From: Acidobacteriota bacterium | Lineage (GTDB): Bacteria; Acidobacteriota; Terriglobia; UBA7540 | Direction of reading: 5' to 3' | NCBI GenBank assembly: GCA_021789565.1 | Contig: JAJYJL010000238.1 | Location: forward strand, 1-8,992 | DNA: 8,992 bases | Part shown: positions 1 through 8,992 of the stretch, one piece after another | Layout: the number at the start of each line of letters is the position of its first letter | How positions within the stretch are numbered: position 1 is the first letter of the stretch | Position numbers and translations under genes: made by a program | The notes under the pieces: model-generated | The model's input: only the letters and a program-made list of their open reading frames with translations | What the model was told of the DNA's origin: nothing | The model's database searches: none

Positions 1-835
1 CCCAGATTTCAGGATTGTGGTGCGCCTGGTAAACATGCTGAGCGACCAGATAACCAATAACGCTGCCGACCACGACATCAGCAGGAAAATGTTCCTGGCC
101 GGTCACGCGCGAAGCGCTGATGGCGCCGGCCAGACCGTAGGCAAACAGCTTGGTGAGAGGACCCGGATATTCATGCGCCAGGATTCCCGCTGTCGACCAT
201 GCCGCCGCCGAGTGCTCTGATGGAAACGAATTCCCTCCCCGCCGGAACTGCCCTTCGGCGTTGCTGACATAAGGACGTTCCCTGCCGGCGGCGCTCTTGA
301 CGGCGGCCGTGGCCAGGTAACTGTCAATCGCTGCCTCACCGCTCAGCAAGCCCGTCTCGCGCATGTGCTCGTTGTGACTGAGTTTGCCCCACAGGTACAT
401 GCCGCCCGCCGTGCCGATCAGGGCGGCGGCGCCCATATTCGAAAACGTGCGGCTCTGGCTGGCCCGGCCGGGAGAGTTGGCGAGGCTGCGGCTGGCCGAA
501 GTGTCCGTAACCAGCAGAGCAGCCGCCAGGCCACCCAGTGGCACCAGCCAGTTGGCGTCGCGCAGACGCAGATGAAAGGGGCTGCTCCAGATGGACCTCT
601 GGTCGCCGGCGATGTGCCTGACCAGGGGAAGGCCGAGCCCGTTCTGGTATTCACCGGAGTTTGGAGAAAATTCGCTCTCGCTCTTCTTGCGATGTCCCCA
701 CCAATCCGTCCGCGGATACTGGCGGACAGACGGGGACACCTGGGAGGAAACTCCCATACCGCGGGGGTTTGTCTGTGCTGGAACTGTCGCTGATGTCATC
801 AAGACCACGCACATAGCAATGACTGTTTTCTGCAA
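1..835 (-). CDS. PAP2-family phosphatase, secreted or membrane-associated (3' end outside window)
   Basis: Hydrolyses phosphate monoesters or lipid (pyro)phosphates, by family. All three parts of the PAP2 / class A acid phosphatase signature are present in order and at normal spacing: K180-x6-R187-P188, P205-S-E-H208 and S242-R-x5-H249-x3-D253. The usual PSGH is PSEH here; the catalytic histidine is kept. The 278 visible residues begin with a signal peptide (K3, hydrophobic core about 5-18, likely cleavage after V-P-A20). Hydrophobic stretches lie near 97-111, 134-149 and 254-267. I chose TTG at 835 because AGGGAG lies 5 bases upstream and because it gives a complete signal peptide. The frame stays open to base 1, so the C-terminus is missing. 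It starts 16 bases after the SLBB export gene, so the two are probably co-transcribed. A role in recycling the undecaprenyl carrier during polysaccharide export is inference; a general acid phosphatase is the alternative. Confidence 0.9.
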   Translation of the reverse strand, partial: MQKTVIAMCVVLMTSATVPAQTNPRGMGVSSQVSPSVRQYPRTDWWGHRKKSESEFSPNSGEYQNGLGLPLVRHIAGDQRSIWSSPFHLRLRDANWLVPLGGLAAALLVTDTSASRSLANSPGRASQSRTFSNMGAAALIGTAGGMYLWGKLSHNEHMRETGLLSGEAAIDSYLATAAVKSAAGRERPYVSNAEGQFRRGGNSFPSEHSAAAWSTAGILAHEYPGPLTKLFAYGLAGAISASRVTGQEHFPADVVVGSVIGYLVAQHVYQAHHNPEIW

Positions 836-840
836 ATGAG

Positions 841-846
841 CTCCCT
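841..846 (-). promoter_or_regulatory. Ribosome binding site deciding the TTG start of the PAP2 gene
   Basis: AGGGAG on the minus strand sits 5 bases before the TTG at 835. The next in-frame ATG (codon 8) would cut into the signal peptide and has no comparable site in front of it. The site lies in the 16-base gap after the SLBB stop codon, as expected in an operon. Confidence 0.6.
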
Positions 847-851
847 GGTTT

Positions 852-3800
852 TCAGCGAGTGGCAACTGCGGCGGCGATGGCGGCCGAGGATGCCACCTGG
901 CTGATCTGAATTAGGTTCTTCCAAAGTGTTGAACCGCCGATTGGTTTTTCCGGGACCACGATAGTGTCGCCGGGCCCGACCCGGGTTGAAAGCACATCCC
1001 CACGCCACCACATGCTCCTGCCGCCGCTGATTACCGATCCATTTGACCGAACAATAAAGATGGCCTTCTTGTTGCCCAATCCTGTGACGCCGCCGGCCCG
1101 TGTCAAGTACCATCCGGCCGACCTGCCCGTTTCGTAGGTAATGGCATTCGAGTTATAGACCTGACCGGTGACAATAACGAAATCGGGACGCTTGGGCACA
1201 GAGAGGGTGTCGCCCGCGCGCATCCGAATGTCATCAATTGAGTTGGCGAACGAACGCAGGTTGTTATCCAGATGAACGACCAGCCGGCCCGTAATTGGGG
1301 CGTTGCGCAGGGCCTCCAGGATCTGTTTCTGTTGCTGCAGCGCCGCAGTTTGCAATGAGGCCCGGTCCGCCGCGGTTTCGTTGAGAGAGACTTTCACCTT
1401 CGTGGCGTTTTGCTGGATTTCCTGGATGAGTTCATTCCGGCTCTTTTCCTGCAGCGTTTTTACCTCAAGCCGTTCGAGCACCGCGGCCTGAGGATAAGCC
1501 GTCGGCAGGAACCCGCCGGCCCGTTCCAGCACGGAACTCAGGCGCTCCCCGGGAGAGATTCCGTAGGTTCCGGGATGCACGACTTCACCGCGTATTGTGA
1601 TTGACGCCCCGACATCATTCCAGCCGGGAACTTCCTTGATCGTCAGAACGTCTCCGTCCGCCAGCAAGGGGTCCTGATTGGGGATTTGCCGAAGCGCCGC
1701 CTCCAGCTTGATTTGTTGATGTTCAGCCGTTCCAGGGTTGGAGCCGCTGACACTGTAACTGGTCAGGTCGGCCGTTTGCCGGTCGGCGCTTCGCTTCAGT
1801 CCGCCGGCCAGCCCCACCAGGTCGCTGACGTGCAGGTTTGCCGTCAGAGGAAATCGCCCTGGCCGTTCGACCTGCCCTTCCACGTAAACACTGGGCGGAT
1901 CAGCTTTCAGAGGGTTCCGTTGCACCAGAATTCTGTCACGCGATTCGAGCAATACGTTTTGCAGCGGGTCTCCGTCCAACGCCGCTCGCAGGTTGATACT
2001 CATGATTTTCAGCTTGCCGTCGGGCAGGTTGCGCACCAGCTGGGCCGAATCGAGATACGCGTCTGGCGCCACGCCTCCCGCCTGGTAGATTGCATCCCGC
2101 ACACGTACTACGCCGGATGTCTGGTAAGTGCCCGGCATCCGCACGTCGCCACCTACCGTCACGGCCGGCGCATAGTGGAAATCAAACCGGCTGAAGATCC
2201 GCACTGTATCCAGCGGGTCGAGTTTCGGAGACGAGCCGGGCTGAGTCATCGCCGCGGCCAGGTCGAAACTTTCCACGCTGGGGGCATCGTCGGGAGGATT
2301 CAGGCGGATGATTTCCGCATAATGGGTTGCAGGCTCCGGCAGCAGATCGGAATAGGACGAAATCAGATCGCTCAGCCGCATTCCGGGGTGATAGGAATAG
2401 CGGCCGGGCCGCAGCACGTGTCCTTCAAGGTAGACGGAATCCTGGTTGTAGGGCGCGATGGGGAAAATACGGATGACATCGCCGTCGTGAACGGCGAAGG
2501 ACTGGAGTTGCTGGTTAATCTCCGCCGAGCCTTTCGGGTCCTGGATGTTCAAGCTCAACATCGTCCGCTTTTCATGCGCCACCACGCGCTGGACTTCAAT
2601 GTGCCGCAGGGCGGCCGTAGGAAGAATCCCGCCGGCCAGTTGAAGGACCTGCGCCAGCGTTGTTTCTCCATGCAGCTCATAAATGGCCGGCCGCCGCACT
2701 GTCCCTTCCACCTTGACTTCCGGACCGACCGGCGGAACCAGGATCGTGTCACCGTTCTCCAGCCGTACCAGATCTGAACGGACGCCGTGCAGCAGCAGGT
2801 CATAAAGATCGACGTTCTGGACCAATTCCTTGCCGCGGTAGTGCTTGACCGTCCTCAGGGAGCCATCCTGCGTGGGGCCACCAGCGGCAAACAGGGCGTT
2901 CAGCGGGGTCGAGAGCGAACTGATGTCGTACGCGCCGGGATACTTGACCTCACCCACTACGTAAACCCGAACAGTGCGAAGCCGCGCGAGAGATACATCG
3001 GCAGAAACGTCACGAAACTGTGTCCGTAGCGCCTGCTGCACCTTCTCCTGCACATGACCCATCGTTTCGCCGCTCACCATCAGAGGCCCGACTTCCGGAA
3101 GCGACAGGCGGCCCTCACGGTCAACCACGCGGTACATGCGTGAGGCCACACTTCCCCACAGGTTGATGGTCAAGCCGTCACCGGGGCCGACCACGTAACT
3201 CGGCCCAGCCGGAAGGTCCATGGGAAGTTCAGTGGTGTCCGCGGGAGCATTCTGAAAGACATCCAACCCAAAACGTTCGAGCGCGGGCGAATGAGATGAA
3301 ACCTGCTCGTAAAGGTCATAGAGTGAAGGGATGTCCGAATACGGATTGGCCCGGTGAACAACAGCCGGCCGGGGTGACACTTCCTGGTAACTTTGCCCAG
3401 TCTGACGATAGTACGGCAAGGTTTGCCAGGGCCGTGCCAGAGTTCCCTGTGGGGGTCCCGGCGATTGTGGCCCTTGTTCCTGAAGTTGCTCTTCCATTCG
3501 AGCGTGGCTGTTGTTGCTTTCCAGTTGCGTGGTCAAGGGCGATGGGTAATTAGCGGAAGCCATCAGGCCCTCGCCCTGTACAGGCCCGGAGGAACCGCCA
3601 TCCAGACCCAGGCCGGCCCCGCCGCCCAGGCTCGCTTCCTGCAGGTTCAAAAGCTGGCCACTGGGATTATTCGGCGCCGGCTGATTCAATGGCGCACCCG
3701 GCGCGGGTCCCCACTCAGGGGCAGAGGGCGCCTGCCGGTTCTCCGGATACCTTCTCACCGGCGGATTAGCCCCCGGTTGCGGGACGTAAGCGGGGTACAC

Positions 3801-4382
3801 CTGGGCAGGCAACTGATAGTAAGCAGGCGGGGACTGGCGCGAGGGCTCTTCCTGGAGCCGCTTCTGTTCCGCCAGAAATTGAATCTGTTGCTGCTGCCCC
3901 ACTTGCGATTTGGGATTGACTTCTGGCGTCAGGTATCCGTAGCGCTGCAGGATGCTTGTTGCCACAGATCGAAATTTCCGGTCGCGTTCAAGGCGGCCAA
4001 AGATTCCATCCTGGCTCATTTGTCGTTCGTCCACCATCTGCCCATGGTCGGTGGCGTCGCGCGCCACCCAGTTCTGCAGTTCCACCAGCAGCCCCGGCTG
4101 GTCAGTCAATACGGCTTCGATGTCCCGCGCGGAGGCGGCCACATAGTTCAGGTTTTGCAGGGCGAGGCTGGATAAAGGCGCCTGCCCGTAACCCTGTTCC
4201 GCTTGCCCAAGCTGCAACAGTTGCTGTTGGGTTTGCGGCCGGGCCGCTGGTCGGGCTTGCCCCTGTTCCTGCGGCATCAGCAACGAGCTCAATGCCAGCA
4301 ACGCCAGCAGCAGAGCCGCTGCCCTCACAAAGAATGCGTGCCCGCCCGGAAACCATCGCCTGGAGCTATAAACTAAATTCAT
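852..4382 (-). CDS. Giant polysaccharide export protein, poly_export plus about seven SLBB domains (Wza-like)
   Basis: Likely forms the periplasmic and outer-membrane channel through which exopolysaccharide or capsule leaves the cell. Of 1176 residues, 17-36 form a hydrophobic export segment; I see no lipobox cysteine, unlike Wza. A compact region at 69-155 precedes a Gln/Pro-rich linker at about 155-345. The poly_export domain spans about 393-468 (YVVGPGD at 396-402). SLBB repeats begin near 471, 555, 649, 740, 831, 927 and 1068; most show a GxVxxPG-type strand turn, then an AGG motif, and several close with a GD(T/V)(I/L) strand. Repeat 6 carries a predicted coiled-coil insertion at about 970-1027. 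The C-terminus (1153-1176) is a W-containing, Ala-rich helix that may match the Wza membrane helix. Wza is under 400 residues, so this is about three times longer. The start is fixed by AGGAGG six bases upstream and an ATGA overlap with the receiver-like gene. Family assignment is firm; the transported polymer is unknown. Confidence 0.93.
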   Translation of the reverse strand: MNLVYSSRRWFPGGHAFFVRAAALLLALLALSSLLMPQEQGQARPAARPQTQQQLLQLGQAEQGYGQAPLSSLALQNLNYVAASARDIEAVLTDQPGLLVELQNWVARDATDHGQMVDERQMSQDGIFGRLERDRKFRSVATSILQRYGYLTPEVNPKSQVGQQQQIQFLAEQKRLQEEPSRQSPPAYYQLPAQVYPAYVPQPGANPPVRRYPENRQAPSAPEWGPAPGAPLNQPAPNNPSGQLLNLQEASLGGGAGLGLDGGSSGPVQGEGLMASANYPSPLTTQLESNNSHARMEEQLQEQGPQSPGPPQGTLARPWQTLPYYRQTGQSYQEVSPRPAVVHRANPYSDIPSLYDLYEQVSSHSPALERFGLDVFQNAPADTTELPMDLPAGPSYVVGPGDGLTINLWGSVASRMYRVVDREGRLSLPEVGPLMVSGETMGHVQEKVQQALRTQFRDVSADVSLARLRTVRVYVVGEVKYPGAYDISSLSTPLNALFAAGGPTQDGSLRTVKHYRGKELVQNVDLYDLLLHGVRSDLVRLENGDTILVPPVGPEVKVEGTVRRPAIYELHGETTLAQVLQLAGGILPTAALRHIEVQRVVAHEKRTMLSLNIQDPKGSAEINQQLQSFAVHDGDVIRIFPIAPYNQDSVYLEGHVLRPGRYSYHPGMRLSDLISSYSDLLPEPATHYAEIIRLNPPDDAPSVESFDLAAAMTQPGSSPKLDPLDTVRIFSRFDFHYAPAVTVGGDVRMPGTYQTSGVVRVRDAIYQAGGVAPDAYLDSAQLVRNLPDGKLKIMSINLRAALDGDPLQNVLLESRDRILVQRNPLKADPPSVYVEGQVERPGRFPLTANLHVSDLVGLAGGLKRSADRQTADLTSYSVSGSNPGTAEHQQIKLEAALRQIPNQDPLLADGDVLTIKEVPGWNDVGASITIRGEVVHPGTYGISPGERLSSVLERAGGFLPTAYPQAAVLERLEVKTLQEKSRNELIQEIQQNATKVKVSLNETAADRASLQTAALQQQKQILEALRNAPITGRLVVHLDNNLRSFANSIDDIRMRAGDTLSVPKRPDFVIVTGQVYNSNAITYETGRSAGWYLTRAGGVTGLGNKKAIFIVRSNGSVISGGRSMWWRGDVLSTRVGPGDTIVVPEKPIGGSTLWKNLIQISQVASSAAIAAAVATR

Positions 4383-4759
4383 TGATAGCCTCCTGCCCGC
4401 CGTCCTGGACCTCGGAGCACGCCGAGAATGCCTTCTTCAGAAGCTTCCACATTAAAAGAATGAATGTCGATCGAGGCCCAGTAGAAAACGCTGCTGTTAT
4501 GCTCCGGCGCCAGAGCCAGGATCTTCATATCCGGAAACTTTGACAGCAGCACGTCACAGACCGGCGGCCGGGATTGCGGGCTGTCAAGCGCCACAATCAG
4601 AAAGTCCGGCCGCTGCTCCTCCACAATGGGAAGGAGGTCTGCCTCATTCTTAACTTCTCCAACCACCTCAATGTCCGGCTGGTCAGTGATCGTGGCCAGG
4701 ATGAGCTCTCGAATCAGTCTGGGCCGGTTGGCAACTAGGACCCGTACGTTTCTTCTCAT
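4379..4759 (-). CDS. Stand-alone degenerate receiver-like (pseudo-REC) protein
   Basis: The 126 residues follow the alternating strand/helix plan of a NarL-type receiver: strands at about 5-10 (VRVLVA), 30-35 (IEVVGE), 52-58, 78-84 (MKILALA) and 98-105, with a helix at 108-116. The catalytic features are gone. The acidic pair after strand 1 is A10-N11; the position five residues after RPD, normally the phospho-acceptor Asp, is A57, with a shifted D59 nearby; the Thr/Ser after strand 4 is Ala or Pro; no conserved Lys is seen near strand 5. There is no DNA-binding domain. ATG 4759 is preferred because GGGAGA lies 5 bases upstream. The frame extends to a TTG at 4879, but that stretch contains the inverted repeats and looks non-coding. 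The stop overlaps the SLBB start by ATGA. A phosphorylation-independent binding or regulatory protein for the export operon is inference. Confidence 0.75.
   Translation of the reverse strand: MRRNVRVLVANRPRLIRELILATITDQPDIEVVGEVKNEADLLPIVEEQRPDFLIVALDSPQSRPPVCDVLLSKFPDMKILALAPEHNSSVFYWASIDIHSFNVEASEEGILGVLRGPGRRAGGYQ
4389..4394 (-). promoter_or_regulatory. Consensus ribosome binding site of the SLBB export gene
   Basis: A perfect AGGAGG on the minus strand lies 6 bases before the ATG at 4382, inside the last codons of the upstream receiver-like gene. Together with the ATGA stop/start overlap it suggests translational coupling and firmly sets the export protein's start. Confidence 0.75.
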
Positions 4760-4764
4760 GCGGC

Positions 4765-4770
4765 TCTCCC
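4765..4770 (-). promoter_or_regulatory. Ribosome binding site selecting the 126-residue start of the receiver-like gene
   Basis: GGGAGA on the minus strand is 5 bases before the ATG at 4759. Neither the in-frame ATG eight codons upstream nor the TTG at 4879 has a site of similar quality, so the shorter product is favoured. Confidence 0.5.
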
Positions 4771-4781
4771 ATAACCATTTC

Positions 4782-4811
4782 ATTATCGGAAGGCCACCCC
4801 AAAAAGAGTAA
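4782..4811 (-). promoter_or_regulatory. Weak sigma70-like promoter candidate before the receiver-like/SLBB/PAP2 unit
   Basis: On the minus strand TTACTC (4811-4806) and GATAAT (4787-4782) are separated by 18 bases, and transcription would start about 15-20 bases before the ATG at 4759. Only the -10 box is good. In this position it would leave the inverted repeats at 4849-4909 upstream of the transcript, as operator DNA rather than leader RNA. Confidence 0.2.
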
Positions 4812-4848
4812 GGTTCAAAGGAGAGGCTCCCAGGCAGCGTCAGCACCG

Positions 4849-4909
4849 TTAGACCTGCATTGGTACTCAATGCCTTCAAAGTACCAATTCCGGTCTAAGG
4901 TAAGACCGG
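4849..4909 (-). repeat. Overlapping inverted repeats: possible attenuator or operator array
   Basis: Two inverted repeats share one arm. The longer pairs 4849-4867 with 4880-4898: a 7-bp block TTAGACC/GGTCTAA, a 3-base mismatch (tgc/tcc), then a perfect 9-bp block ATTGGTACT/AGTACCAAT around a 12-base loop. The shorter pairs CCGGTCT (4890-4896) with AGACCGG (4903-4909) around a 6-base loop. Bases 4892-4896 belong to both, so in minus-strand RNA the two hairpins exclude each other. The segment lies between the LuxR-type gene and the receiver-like gene. No U-run follows directly, so a simple intrinsic terminator is unlikely. It could be an RNA switch, a protein-binding site or both. Confidence 0.6.
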
Positions 4910-4948
4910 GGGAAATAGCCTGAATACATGGAGAAACTTTTTTGGGAT

Positions 4949-5608
4949 TTATAGAAAAATCTGATTGACCCTGACCATCTCCACCACGGAAAGACGGTCA
5001 TCAGCCCCAACTTTCTGTAACATGCGATGAACGTGGTTCTTCACGGTCTGCTCAGAAAGATGGAGTTGCGAAGCAATTTCTTTGTTGGTAAGGCCCTGGG
5101 CAAGCAAAGGCACCAGTTGCTGCTGGCGGCGAGACAATCCCAACTGGGATTTCACTCGCACATTGGGCAAGCCAGTCCGGGAACTTGCAATGTAGCGGAA
5201 AAGCGAAAGGCAAAGACGCGGAGGGCATACGGCCTCATCACGTGTAATAGCGCGGATTGCTGATACTACATCCAGGGCCGAGGCATCCTTCAAAACGAAC
5301 CCTGCTGCTCCGGCTGTAACGGCCTTCAGAAACTCCGCCTCGTCTTCATCCATGCCGATCATCAAAACTTTCAGTCCCGGCACAGCATCGACAGCATCAT
5401 GAATCAACTGGAAGCCGAAGATTGCCGTTACTGAAGAATCGGCTACCAGGACTTCGCATCCCGAGCCGGTGATCATACTCAGCGTCTCGGACGTATACGA
5501 GGCTGCATGGACGACTTCAAACTCGACCCTTTTGCGCAGGATCCTCGTGAGAGCTTCTAGAAGAAGTCGGTTCTGAGCAAGCAGAAATATATCGATGGCA
5601 GAACTCAC
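4949..5608 (-). CDS. LuxR/NarL-family response regulator with atypical receiver
   Basis: A DNA-binding transcription regulator of 219 residues. The receiver spans about 4-125 and a LuxR-type helix-turn-helix spans 157-215 (LSRRQQQLVPLLAQGLTNKE at 158-177, then a TVKNHV recognition helix at 188-193). The likely phospho-acceptor D57 and strand-5 lysine K107 are kept, but the acidic metal-binding pair is replaced by A11-Q12 and the switch Thr/Ser by G85. Normal phospho-signalling is therefore doubtful. The start is GTG at 5608, with AAAGGG four bases and AAGGGG ten bases upstream; this is the only reasonable start I see. No histidine kinase is visible nearby. It is in the same orientation as, and 189 bases ahead of, the receiver-like gene, making it the obvious candidate regulator of the export operon. 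That link is inference. Confidence 0.9.
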   Translation of the reverse strand: MSSAIDIFLLAQNRLLLEALTRILRKRVEFEVVHAASYTSETLSMITGSGCEVLVADSSVTAIFGFQLIHDAVDAVPGLKVLMIGMDEDEAEFLKAVTAGAAGFVLKDASALDVVSAIRAITRDEAVCPPRLCLSLFRYIASSRTGLPNVRVKSQLGLSRRQQQLVPLLAQGLTNKEIASQLHLSEQTVKNHVHRMLQKVGADDRLSVVEMVRVNQIFL

Positions 5609-5719
5609 GGCACCCTTTCCCCTTCGCGTCCGCTCTAGCTTATTGGTCGACTCAGCAGCGATTGAGAAGGTCGCCCTGATCTTAAACCCTTTGCGTGGGC
5701 CTGCAGGAACTGCCGGTTA

Positions 5720-5750
5720 GACCCAGATAAAATGGCGAACGATCTGGGTC
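5720..5750. repeat. Perfect 9-bp inverted repeat upstream of the LuxR-type regulator
   Basis: GACCCAGAT (5720-5728) and ATCTGGGTC (5742-5750) are exact inverted copies around a 13-base centre, about 112-142 bases before the GTG start of the regulator. The left arm overlaps a TTAGACC heptamer (5717-5723) that also occurs twice in the repeats at 4849-4898. The position suits an operator or a leader hairpin; it is not followed by a T-run in either direction. Confidence 0.5.
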
Positions 5751-6345
5751 CGCACCCCCCACCTCCAAGCTCATAAGGCTTGCCAATCTTGCTTTTTAAG
5801 CGCAAGAGTCTAACTCAAACGACGGGTATGCTGTCAGGCAAATTATCACAATAGTAAATACCACATATTGAGCCAGACATGATCTGCAACCAAGTATTAA
5901 GTATTCAGCCTGCCAATTCCGGGGATGATCGTTCCCGGCCCTATAATCCTGTTTTGTGACGTTGGGTTCGAATCAAGGGGGCCGGCGCTTATCCTGACGC
6001 CATGGCTTTGGGCCCCATTTTGCCGCGAAAATTCACACCATCATTCGTATGGACGGAGCTGTTAAGTTGCCAGCCCCAAAGTCATCAAATCGGGAGAAAC
6101 GGGGTAGAACTTGAGTACCTGACCGCTACTCCGAACAAGGAAAGTGACCAGTTGGTAACATTTTGTGTTCCGCAGCCCCCCTCAGCGCCAGCATTGACAG
6201 CCAGCCACTGCGTACACATGTTGGTCCGCTCGAAAGAAGAGATTCCTGCATCCCTGCCAGACACTATAGCGATCCTTCCCGCCTGCATGGAAAAGTTTCT
6301 CCTCTGGGTTCTGATGGTTTATGGCATGGCAATTCGCGCTCCAAA

Positions 6346-6401
6346 CTGGAGCACCAATAACCGATGTAGTTTTATCAGATAAGTCAAAGGGGTGCCTCCA
6401 G
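6346..6401. repeat. Long-loop inverted repeat with one bulged base
   Basis: CTGGAGCACC (6346-6355) is the inverted copy of GGTGCCTCCAG (6391-6401) apart from one extra base, around a 35-base centre. No T-run follows on either strand. It could be the stem of a structured RNA, the ends of a very small element or chance. Confidence 0.35.
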
Positions 6402-6435
6402 CCGCAATGCAAAGAATGACACCATTTCGCCAAGC

Positions 6436-6451
6436 TGACGAAATTTCGTCA
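6436..6451. promoter_or_regulatory. Perfect 16-bp palindrome, operator-like
   Basis: TGACGAAATTTCGTCA reads the same on both strands with no spacer. A further GACGAAA half-site lies at about 6467-6473. The length and AT centre resemble a binding site for a dimeric regulator. It stands about 300 bases beyond the TonB receptor's stop codon and far from any supported start, so its target gene is unclear. Confidence 0.4.
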
Positions 6452-6714
6452 CCACGCCCGGCGACCGACGAAAAAAATGTGATCTTTATGACTTTTGAGG
6501 GGTTAGCGCAAAGTCATTCGAAGATGCGGGGCCCTTCCAAACCTGAACTGCCCCGCCGTCGAGTGGGAGCCCGTGCTTGTAAAGAAGGATCCGCTTGAAG
6601 GCCCTGCGGTCCTTGCCTGGGGTTTCCATTGAGATCTGCAGCACCGGCAGTCGAGGACTGCGGCCCAAAAAGGAAAAACGCCTTTCCCGGCCCCGCCGGT
6701 AACGCAAGACACGG

Positions 6715-6732
6715 CCAGACCATTCAGTCTGG
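6715..6732 (-). terminator. Possible weak hairpin after the TonB receptor gene
   Basis: CCAGAC (6715-6720) and GTCTGG (6727-6732) form a 6-bp stem with a 6-base loop, 21 bases after the receptor's stop codon. No T-run follows directly; T-rich patches come only about 35-50 bases later. Position is its main support as a terminator. Confidence 0.25.
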
Positions 6733-6752
6733 GGCGAAATTTGATTTCGAAG

Positions 6753-8992
6753 TCAGTAAATCAACCGAAGCGAAAACTGGATCTGGCGTGAGGTTCCCGC
6801 GGTTCTGCTGATAAGCCCAAAACCGCTGCCGCGCAATGTATTGGAAGGGACGGCAAAGTTAACAAGATTTAACACATTGAAGAACTCGGCGCGAAACTGA
6901 AGGATTCCCAGTTCCGCGTTTCCTCTTCGTCCAAACGACGTATCCTTTATCAAGGCAACATCGAAGTTGGAATAGGCAGGCCCCCTGAACGTGTTACGGC
7001 CAAGAGACCCAAAGACGCCCTGATTCGGGCCAGTGCCTCCGGGAACGTTGATTGGGATGCTGAAGAAAGAGGCATTATTCGCGCCGCGCCCGAAGTAATC
7101 TTCCCGAACTGTCCGGCTGGTCGAAAAGCTGGGCTGAGCAATCTGGTCGGGACGGTCTGCGCCTGCCGTCCCCACGCCGGTTTGCTGTATCCCGGAGTAC
7201 ACGGTAAAGGGTAAGCCTGTCATCAGGGTCGTAATATTCAGAAGCTGCCATCCCTCCGTCACATGTTTCCCCAGCGGTTGCAGAAAACTCACCCGATTAA
7301 CGGGAAGCGCCTGAATCAGGCTCAGTGCGAAAATGTGGGTCACATCAAAGTTGGAAGGTCCCTTATCTGCACCGGGATTCCAGGGGTCCTGTGGCAAAGT
7401 CTGAAGAATGACACCGGGCCCTCCGGACAGATTGCCAAGGGCTGAGCTTGAGTCGTCGAGCGACTTGGAATACGTATAGGTGGCCTGGAACCCCAGCCCC
7501 CACCGCGAGGAATTCTTGCTCAGGCTTGTTTGCAATGACTGGTAAGTGGAGTGCGAACGGGTTGTCATCAGCGTTTCGGATCCAAATCCACCTATGGCCT
7601 GCCCCGACGAGTTGAATCGGGCAAACGGAGCAAAGCTGGGCAATGCGCCGCTGTAACTGTTTGGAGAAAAAATGCTGGCAAGGTGCACGCCGGCGGTGGC
7701 CACATAATTGGCGCTCAGCTTCACATCTCCGAAATCATGGTCAATCCCCGCCGTATAAGTTTCGATATAACCGTTCCGAAAATTTTTCTCGATCCCGAAT
7801 GTTGAAAGCAACTGAACCTGGCCTCCGGGAGTCAGCGCAGCCAGATCGTTCTGGAACCGCTGAATGTCAATCTGCGTGTTGGGCGCAACGTCAGCAGTGT
7901 TCCCTGTCGGGAAAACCGGCTGCCCGTCTGGGGTATAAACAGAAGGCACTTGCACCTTTGTCACAGTATTGCTGAACGGCACCGGGAAGCCCGGCTGGGC
8001 GGAAACATACGGCGTGAAAAGATATGGAATGTTGCCCGTCAGGAAGTTGTCCTGCCACAGGTTCGTGAGAAGCGTCGTGATGGCGCCGCCGGCATGCAGA
8101 ACGGTGTGGTTGCTCAGGCGAAAGTCGAGCGAGAGGCGTGGCGCCCAGCCGGTCCAGTCCATGTTGTAAGGAGGCTGAGGATTCACCACAAAGATCTGTT
8201 GAGCCCCAGGCGCCCAGAAAGGCACACTGGCGCCGCTTGCATCCACAAACAGCGGTTGGGAACTTCGCTTGTGGCCTTCACCAATGCGGCTGTCGACTTC
8301 ATACCGCAGGCCGTAGTTAACGGCCAGGCGTGATGTGGCTTTCCAACTGTCCTGAAAATAGAAATTGTAAGCCTGGCGACGCTCGGCTGCCTCGTCAAAA
8401 CGATCTCCGCCCGGAGTAATATCTGAGATAGCGCTAACGGTGTAGAGATAAGGTGTCGCGGTCAGCAAACCGGTCAGAGAATCCGGCAAGGGATCGCCCG
8501 GCTGCAGATCATGCTGGCCGCTCGCCGAAGTTATGGCCACTGGCGAATACGCCGTCCCGCCGCCAAAAGTGTAGAGTCCATTCGGATTCACACCCCAGAC
8601 AGTGGAGTCCCGGTTAAGACGTATCTCCGCACCCCACTTAAAAGTGTGTGCGCCGTGCGCATCGGTCATGTCGTGCTTAAACTGAAACAGGTTTCCGTAA
8701 GATCCGGTTATAGATCCGTCGGCGGAATTAAACGGCTCATACAACGCGTCGCTAAAAGTAATTGCCGCCTGTGTATGGTTAATGGAGGGGAAAAACGGGG
8801 TGCTGCGGATATACCCCACGGAAGTGGTAGAAGTCATGTTCGGCGACCAGATGTGCGTGTACTTCAATCCTGCGTTCCGCTGGTGGTCGAAATACTTGAT
8901 GGCAAAACTCGGATCGATGGCTGTCTGGTCGGGATTGGTGATAGGGCCGGTGATCTGGTTCAGGCTGAAGAGCGTGTAAAGCGATGATTTGT
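6753..8992 (-). CDS. Oar-like TonB-dependent outer-membrane receptor, C-terminal part (5' end outside window)
   Basis: About 745 residues of a TonB-dependent beta-barrel, probably for uptake of a large substrate; the family does not reveal which. The frame stays open to the window edge, so the N-terminal signal peptide, carboxypeptidase-regulatory-like domain, plug and TonB box are not visible. A TTG within the frame (8867) is not the start, because upstream residues such as NPDQTAIDPSFAIKYFDHQR continue the barrel. Typical family stretches are the NFYFQDSWKATSRLAVNYGLRYE-type strand pair, YTYSKSLDDSSS, DKGPSNFDVTHIF, FGSLGRNTFRGPAYSNFDVAL and LQFRAEFFNVLN. The end, RQIQFSLRLIY with a terminal aromatic residue, is a normal outer-membrane barrel C-terminus. 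It has the same strand as the other genes but is 1.1 kb from the next one, so it is probably a separate unit. Confidence 0.9.
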   Translation of the reverse strand, partial: KSSLYTLFSLNQITGPITNPDQTAIDPSFAIKYFDHQRNAGLKYTHIWSPNMTSTTSVGYIRSTPFFPSINHTQAAITFSDALYEPFNSADGSITGSYGNLFQFKHDMTDAHGAHTFKWGAEIRLNRDSTVWGVNPNGLYTFGGGTAYSPVAITSASGQHDLQPGDPLPDSLTGLLTATPYLYTVSAISDITPGGDRFDEAAERRQAYNFYFQDSWKATSRLAVNYGLRYEVDSRIGEGHKRSSQPLFVDASGASVPFWAPGAQQIFVVNPQPPYNMDWTGWAPRLSLDFRLSNHTVLHAGGAITTLLTNLWQDNFLTGNIPYLFTPYVSAQPGFPVPFSNTVTKVQVPSVYTPDGQPVFPTGNTADVAPNTQIDIQRFQNDLAALTPGGQVQLLSTFGIEKNFRNGYIETYTAGIDHDFGDVKLSANYVATAGVHLASIFSPNSYSGALPSFAPFARFNSSGQAIGGFGSETLMTTRSHSTYQSLQTSLSKNSSRWGLGFQATYTYSKSLDDSSSALGNLSGGPGVILQTLPQDPWNPGADKGPSNFDVTHIFALSLIQALPVNRVSFLQPLGKHVTEGWQLLNITTLMTGLPFTVYSGIQQTGVGTAGADRPDQIAQPSFSTSRTVREDYFGRGANNASFFSIPINVPGGTGPNQGVFGSLGRNTFRGPAYSNFDVALIKDTSFGRRGNAELGILQFRAEFFNVLNLVNFAVPSNTLRGSGFGLISRTAGTSRQIQFSLRLIY

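Follow-up and report, generated by a model that had tools for sequence, protein, structure and literature searches.

A lone pseudo-receiver and a LuxR-type regulator as a candidate module for phosphorylation-independent control of a surface-polysaccharide operon in Acidobacteria

How bacterial pseudo-receivers are turned on and off is still a mystery, according to the available text of a 2025 review (PMC12632262). Among the closest described systems is the BldM-WhiI heterodimer of Streptomyces, presented in the available part of PMC4125116 as a pair of atypical orphan response regulators in which one acts with the other. RitR and other aspartate-less receivers have an altered acidic pocket, and the accessible portions of PMC4395418 and PMC12632262 describe control of RitR by a cysteine in its linker. 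Here we analysed an 8,992-nt stretch of an Acidobacteriota contig (JAJYJL010000238.1, positions 1 to 8,992; hereafter the window), in which a LuxR-type regulator (a2) and a stand-alone receiver (a1), both without the acidic pair of canonical receivers, precede a polysaccharide exporter gene of the SLBB family. We propose, as a reading with an even chance of being right, that a2 and a1 together control an acidobacterial surface-polysaccharide operon as a module independent of phosphorylation, with a1 feeding back on a2.

Profile and structure searches concurred in assigning a receiver fold to a1. Alignment of its VLVANRPRL with the canonical VLVADDHPL places N11-R12 at the acidic pair, while A57, A84 and V104 occupy the positions of the acceptor Asp, the Thr and the Lys. 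The initial annotation had rightly reported the absence of the acidic pair but had placed it at A10-N11, one residue early; its statement that no phospho-acceptor aligns was borne out, D59 lying two residues beyond position 57. These losses recur throughout the 124 a1 rows, which, like the 99 a2 rows, were collected through their similarity to the proteins of the window, with the window counted twice and kinship present. No a1 row is acidic at position 11 or 12, and D57 occurs in 1/124, Thr/Ser at 84 in 8/124 and Lys at 104 in none. The full DD/D/T/K set, which in the terms of the initial annotation would have been counter-evidence, was found in 0/124 rows. The residues conserved in a1 are N11 (117 rows, a count partly circular because one of the three peptide patterns used for gathering loci contains N11), R12 (102), R14 (120), R17 (124), W94 (122) and C68 (122). 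As had been claimed, no output domain is present: the chain ends after α5 and no helix-turn-helix (HTH) family matched it.

Against PF00072 the a1 of the window scored 14.7 bits, under the curated cut-off of 30.2 bits. Among 94 a1 members, 45 matched this family at E≤0.1 and 49 did not, and the best E value of 0.00043 implies that even this member would score below the cut-off; in NCBIfam only sub-threshold receiver models were obtained. Weak matches to PF03808 (WecG) in 18 of the 94 members (best E 0.0018) were taken as noise. Database names, where the matches listed carried any, were for example CheB- or NarL/FixJ-type regulator. The structural model predicts a strand at residues 89-95 in place of α4, with a predicted local distance difference test (pLDDT) score of 81-88 for the blocks covering 81-100. 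With a receiver fold and the key phosphotransfer residues missing, a1 is a bacterial pseudo-receiver.

The regulator a2 matched both PF00072 (38.3 bits, cut-off 30.2) and PF00196 (60.7 bits, cut-off 23.5), giving the receiver plus GerE/LuxR HTH architecture of the NarL/FixJ family, and its model reached a pLDDT of 86. Its A11-Q12 align with D8-D9 of DevR, which confirms the earlier observation that the acidic pair is lost at these residues. Position 11 is acidic in 0/99 rows and position 12 in 46/99, both together and the full set in none; D57 is present in 95/99, K107 in 77/99 and the switch Thr/Ser in 1/99. Directly past the receiver and α5, Cys128 (codon at window ~5225-5227, minus strand) is kept in 97/99 rows within a CPP motif, and on inspection none of the 11 canonical regulators that served as a comparison has a Cys at this position. 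By analogy with RitR, Cys128 is a possible redox input. The VpsT-type motif for binding cyclic di-GMP, located after the receiver, contains a Trp; on inspection the a2 of the window has no Trp and hence no such W-containing motif.

The best 80 of 140 stretches served as loci, of which 79 could be analysed (L026 gave no row). All 80 are labelled Acidobacteria, Terriglobia or their subgroups; the nearest, L001, comes from an Acidobacteria metagenome-assembled genome and carries an a1 that is 93% identical. At E≤0.001, 4671 proteins were similar to a1 and 5978 to a2; the best 120 of each were inspected, and the tails may include other receivers. Between the window and L001, dN/dS was 0.036/0.97 = 0.037 for a1, 0.088/1.23 = 0.072 for a2 and 0.21/1.30 = 0.16 for the SLBB gene. 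The value for a1 is the lowest of the three genes compared, and because of it a1 cannot be regarded as a relic. Mean identity to the window across 54 loci with all three proteins was 56.8% for a1, 48.3% for a2 and 51.2% for SLBB. Chance or decay of the receivers was ruled out by the residues fixed in the 124 and 99 rows together with dN/dS. Tandem copies of a1 were seen in L025 (2661-3682) and L031 (9555-10372), and a partial copy in L030.

The initial annotation had further suggested that the two genes arose by duplication and divergence. In a 58-row tree, a1 (18 rows plus 6 divergent ones) was split from 34 LuxR-type rows, a2 included, with support of 100/100, and a1 thus has a branch of its own. 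A sister grouping of a1 and a2 was not rejected by the approximately unbiased test (p 0.33), and these sequence comparisons neither show nor reject a direct origin of a1 from a2.

Linkage and co-occurrence are in line with a functional relation between the two proteins. a2 lies within 3.5 kb of a1 in 59 of the 79 loci (28 in the same direction, 31 divergent) and within 1 kb in 58, so that the two genes are not usually unlinked, the outcome that the initial annotation had counted against its proposal. Among the 20 loci without a2 nearby, two have matches below threshold, namely an a2 truncated at the end of the contig in L024 (69 bits) and a remnant of 43 bits in L071. We searched 18 genomes for a2, namely 17 without an adjacent a2 and that of L001 (L017, L021 and L024, near contig ends, were excluded). 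A match of at least 209 bits was present elsewhere in 16 of the 17, the exception being G009; overall 17 of the 18 hold such a match, all other matches score 112 bits or less, and none falls between. In 299 genomes of the class, where some matches are fragments (G482, G362), a1 was found in 56, a2 in 59 and both in 52 (Fisher p 2e-45, kinship ignored). Since one a1 match (G510) is a canonical regulator (L140) and one a2 match (G378) an intermediate (L145), the counts without both are 55, 58 and 52 shared. A phylum-wide draw gave a1-like matches in 4/297, comprising two true family members, one divergent member (G263) and one intermediate regulator (L104).

The dimer face of NarL/FixJ receivers is formed by α1/α5, according to the available text of PMC12632262. 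Positional entropy in α1 plus α5 was lower than in α2 plus α3 in both proteins: 0.95 versus 2.04 bits in a1 (p 8e-4) and 1.14 versus 2.74 bits in a2 (p 1e-6). At 11 rows, the conservation ratio was 2.5 for a1 and 2.4 for a2, and 1.2 for the 11 canonical regulators. This pattern is consistent with α1/α5 bearing the trace of a heterodimer or of parallel homodimers.

We then examined the 81 valid regions upstream of a1, a set that takes in the window and, for L025 and L031, the second of the tandem copies, but not L021, which stands at the start of a contig. GTACCAA was present in 47/81 (shuffles 3.2, maximum 6). The spacing of GTAC sites shows peaks at 11 bp (51 pairs), 22-24, 33-35 and 45-46 bp, and the sites therefore lie on one helix face. 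At least two GTAC within 220 bp were found in 23/28 same-direction loci, 25/31 divergent loci and 16/19 loci without a nearby a2; the array is independent of a2 being adjacent. GTAC density was 18.9/kb upstream of a1, 3.4/kb upstream of a2 (25 same-direction loci) and 2.5/kb in the locus background. With GTAC not notably enriched upstream of a2, autoregulation of a2 through the same array was unsupported.

The element TTGAACCTT, with up to two mismatches, occurs in 74/81 upstream regions (shuffles mean 6.8, maximum 15). Anchored on it, a -10-like box (up to one mismatch) follows TTGAACC at a distance of 29-31 nt in 52 of these 74 regions, while random upstream positions gave no peak. TTGAACCTT is situated near -41 and shares its final TT with a poor -35; this arrangement points to an activator-dependent promoter layout. 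Sites of NarL have a TAC core, TACYYMT, in the accessible text of PMC4886647, and a NarL-type HTH of a2 reading GGTAC would fit by analogy with that core. A standard sigma-70 promoter was rejected, with no consensus match in 4700-5000, as was an RNA leader: no Rfam family reached its gathering score in the window, and the leader would be only ~15 nt long. A larger regulon was likewise not supported, matches to TTGAACCT...ATA being few and close to the reversed-pattern control. Directly upstream of the GTAC sites the window has an inverted repeat, CCGGTCT-AAGGTA-AGACCGG (4890-4909). TTAGACC appears again at 4849-4855 and 5717-5723; the GTAC sites of L001 are flanked by TTAGACC/GGTCTAA.

As to the exporter, an SLBB start lies within 1.5 kb downstream of a1 in 74/79 loci. 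In these 74 loci the two genes are at most 50 bp apart or overlap in 39 and are separated by more than 400 bp in 29; in the window the SLBB start overlaps the a1 stop as ATGA (4379-4382). The five remaining loci are L022, L025 and L079 (contig ends), L076, where SLBB stands behind PAP2, and L080, where the SLBB match is on the other strand. Most gaps above 400 bp hold an open reading frame (ORF) of ~150-215 aa, which proved to be a NusG-domain protein in 3/3 tested. NusG-like genes of ~180-200 aa were seen between a1 and SLBB in L005, L036 and L058; the window has none at this place. PAP2 matches occur in 52/79 loci, and both full-length PAP2 relatives tested (2/2) also carry Caps_assemb_Wzi. 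In these two, from L001 (14227-16782) and L013 (13987-16518), PAP2 is fused to a Wzi capsule-assembly barrel. Downstream of PAP2 we found Wzz in 4/4 tested loci, a flippase-type gene in 2/4 and a NusG-like gene in two (L001, L004). With SLBB in the window, which is cut beyond PAP2, and Wzz/flippase in relatives, the gene set is that of a Wza/Wzy-type export operon.

The features of the window are collected in Table 1. On the minus strand their order is the PF25183 barrel gene, a 1.1-kb gap, a2, a1, the SLBB exporter and PAP2. The ~1.1 kb separating a2 from the barrel gene (5640-6750) gave no Rfam match.

Table 1. Positions of genes and promoter elements in the window
Feature	Positions	Strand	Remarks
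a2, LuxR/NarL-type regulator	4949..5608	-	ORF, 219 aa, GTG start; pseudo-receiver + GerE HTH
a1, stand-alone pseudo-receiver	4379..4759	-	126 aa, ATG at 4759 to stop at 4379
SLBB/Poly_export polysaccharide exporter	852..4382	-	1176 aa; ORF and family match
PAP2 phosphatase part	2..865	-	family match; gene cut by window edge
Outer-membrane beta-barrel gene, PF25183	6753..8990	-	ahead of a2
GTAC half-site, a1 upstream region	4863..4866		sequence; enriched in family
GTAC half-site	4881..4884		18 bp from the 4863..4866 site
TTGAACCTT element	4810..4818	-	about -41 from the putative transcription start
Weak -35-like hexamer TTACTC	4806..4811	-	overlaps TTGAACCTT; placed via spacing to the -10-like box
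-10-like GATAAT	4782..4787	-	spacing from TTGAACC conserved in family
Ribosome-binding-site-like GGGAGAG preceding the a1 ATG	4764..4770	-	on inspection

A smaller set of pairs, drawn from low-scoring matches and not from a systematic survey, shows a1 and a2 in other surroundings. Divergent a1 and a2 genes adjoin in L148, L150, L151 and L152 and lie ~3.3 kb apart in L149. Four of the five stretches have an SLBB match nearby; both SLBB genes that were tested encode Poly_export/SLBB proteins of a different, short Wza-type exporter, and four large neighbours tested carry GNVR plus AAA (Wzc-like) domains. In L147 (G263) an a1-like gene is flanked by two a2-like genes. The 11.6-kb contig of L147 has nothing matching the window SLBB by phmmer, three of its neighbours having been checked by Pfam, and ketoacyl synthase and HMG-CoA reductase genes are among those neighbours. 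Because divergent pairs persist near other exporters and, in L147, without an exporter match, the favoured interpretation of these comparisons is that a1-a2 may be the unit and the exporter its usual client. The proposal of a control module ahead of a polysaccharide exporter, already made in the initial annotation, gains strength from the phased sites, the promoter and the divergent pairs near another Wza/Wzc set.

Based on these observations, we hypothesise that a2 binds the phased GTAC array, whose end is marked by TTGAACCTT near -41 of the a1 promoter, and would thereby activate this promoter, which combines a good -10 with a poor -35; activation of the operon by a2 through the array, without phosphorylation, appears probable to us. 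The promoter would drive a1, then in some lineages the NusG-like gene, the SLBB exporter and PAP2-Wzi, with Wzz/GNVR afterwards in the tested loci; this gene order was seen in the loci, and the genes are presumably co-transcribed. Having no DNA-binding domain, a1 may pair with the a2 receiver via the α1/α5 face and tune a2, and the chances that it modulates a2 by direct contact seem to us balanced. As the first product of the operon, a1 would most likely close a negative feedback loop by the logic of SinI on SinR; it might alternatively be a co-activator of a2, and we lean slightly towards the inhibitor. More speculatively, the old phosphorylation site with N11, R12, R14 and R17 might sense a ligand or hold the partner, and Cys128 of a2 would be a second candidate input. 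We put forward only tentatively, as rather unlikely, a kinase-free class of systems in which one phosphorylation-dead receiver would signal to another: a ligand-sensing a1 with this basic pocket docks on the a2 pseudo-receiver and sets occupancy of the phased operator at surface-polysaccharide promoters.

Several observations weigh against this model. What speaks for contact between a1 and a2 is their linkage, co-occurrence and conservation, signals that common descent within one class can inflate. In the divergent rows the conservation ratio drops to 1.7 and 1.5 (six rows each), and 11 rows of mixed subfamilies make up the canonical control. The a1 model is least sure at residues 11-20, the proposed pocket (block pLDDT 61). 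The promoter of the window is at the weak end of the family: besides TTGAACCTT and GATAAT it has just two GTAC sites, at a spacing of 18 bp, and no pair at 10-12 bp. No GTAC pair at 10-12 bp occurs in 32/81 regions, and no GTAC at all within 260 bp in 4/81. An exact triple GTAC array is present in 15/81 a1 upstream regions, and five such arrays were found in 4 of the 18 whole genomes searched, none on the a1 contig, a comparison which is not like for like as these genomes show no triple array at a1 themselves. The link between a2 and the array is a putative one, and a factor other than a2 could own the array.

Other explanations have to be considered alongside. If a2 alone controlled the operon, a1 might serve the exporter or another product of the operon, for instance by acting in the cytoplasm as an adaptor for the polysaccharide machinery, and this would suit both its linkage, tighter to SLBB (74/79) than to a2 (59/79), and the overlap of the two genes in the window. 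We consider it doubtful: a divergent a1 stands between two a2-like genes in L147, where nothing in the contig matched the window SLBB, and other divergent a1-a2 pairs are near a different, short exporter. It is even less probable that a1 is an elongation accessory factor working with the adjacent NusG-like protein, as in RfaH/LoaP-type specialised NusG systems. The 29/74 loci with a gap above 400 bp, mostly with an ORF in it and a NusG domain wherever tested, and the NusG-like genes further downstream in L001 and L004 are in its favour, but in 39/74 loci, the window type, nothing stands between a1 and SLBB. Moreover, NusG paralogues serve other polysaccharide operons too, as far as the partly available literature goes, and the link need not be to a1.

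Improbable to a similar degree is that a2 is still phospho-regulated via D57/K107, for instance by a kinase tolerating one acidic residue, only a1 being truly dead. The a2 of the window retains D57 and K107, as do most a2 rows, nearly half of the rows are acidic at position 12, and both L147 a2-like genes keep D57, which leaves room for phosphorylation of a2 by an unusual route. Position 11, however, is never acidic and the switch Thr/Ser is almost always lost; in the six divergent a2 rows, from five stretches, C, T, S or H replaces D57, with N13-R14 kept in 5/6. The phosphorylation independence suggested by the initial annotation is thus favoured by the lost residues and qualified by the D57 of the window a2, though the divergent rows have lost it.

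Under the proposed model, a1/a2 and their promoter are where common soil bacteria would likely control how much polysaccharide they put out. The lone pseudo-receiver was missed by the Pfam receiver model in the window. Selection constrains it more strongly than the exporter encoded after it, and candidates can be named for both its partner and its operator; together with a promoter of fixed geometry, these are conserved in many Acidobacteria. With two proteins and ~130 bp of promoter, the set is small enough for bench testing, and the pair makes the control of phosphorylation-dead receivers testable.

RcsA has a degenerate receiver, and SinI and SinR belong to different protein families than a1 and a2. 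Libraries and literature were searched and no name was found for the a1-a2 pairing. In comparison with BldM-WhiI, in which both proteins bind DNA at promoters, a1 has no HTH, and the available text of PMC4125116 does not tie BldM-WhiI to an exporter operon. RcsB, whose partners at capsule promoters include RcsA, differs in being phosphorylated in the Rcs phosphorelay and in having transcription regulators as partners (PMC5829831, available text). VpsT and CsgD resemble a2 as LuxR/FixJ-type regulators of biofilm genes, VpsT activating polysaccharide genes, whereas the window a2 lacks the Trp and no lone partner receiver is described for them in the available part of PMC3359988. RitR shares with a1 a basic residue at acidic position 2, and its linker Cys is comparable in place to Cys128 of a2 (PMC4395418, PMC12632262, as available); unlike the pair, it unites receiver and DNA-binding domain in one protein, with no paired lone pseudo-receiver in the accessible text of PMC4395418. 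SinI is similar in logic, since by pairing with a regulator of biofilm formation it abolishes that regulator's binding to DNA, although SinR is a repressor (PMC3163267, partial text). Atypical response regulators of polysaccharide genes and heterodimers of response regulators are thus known kinds already, and the a1-a2 pairing is a variant of them and not a new kind.

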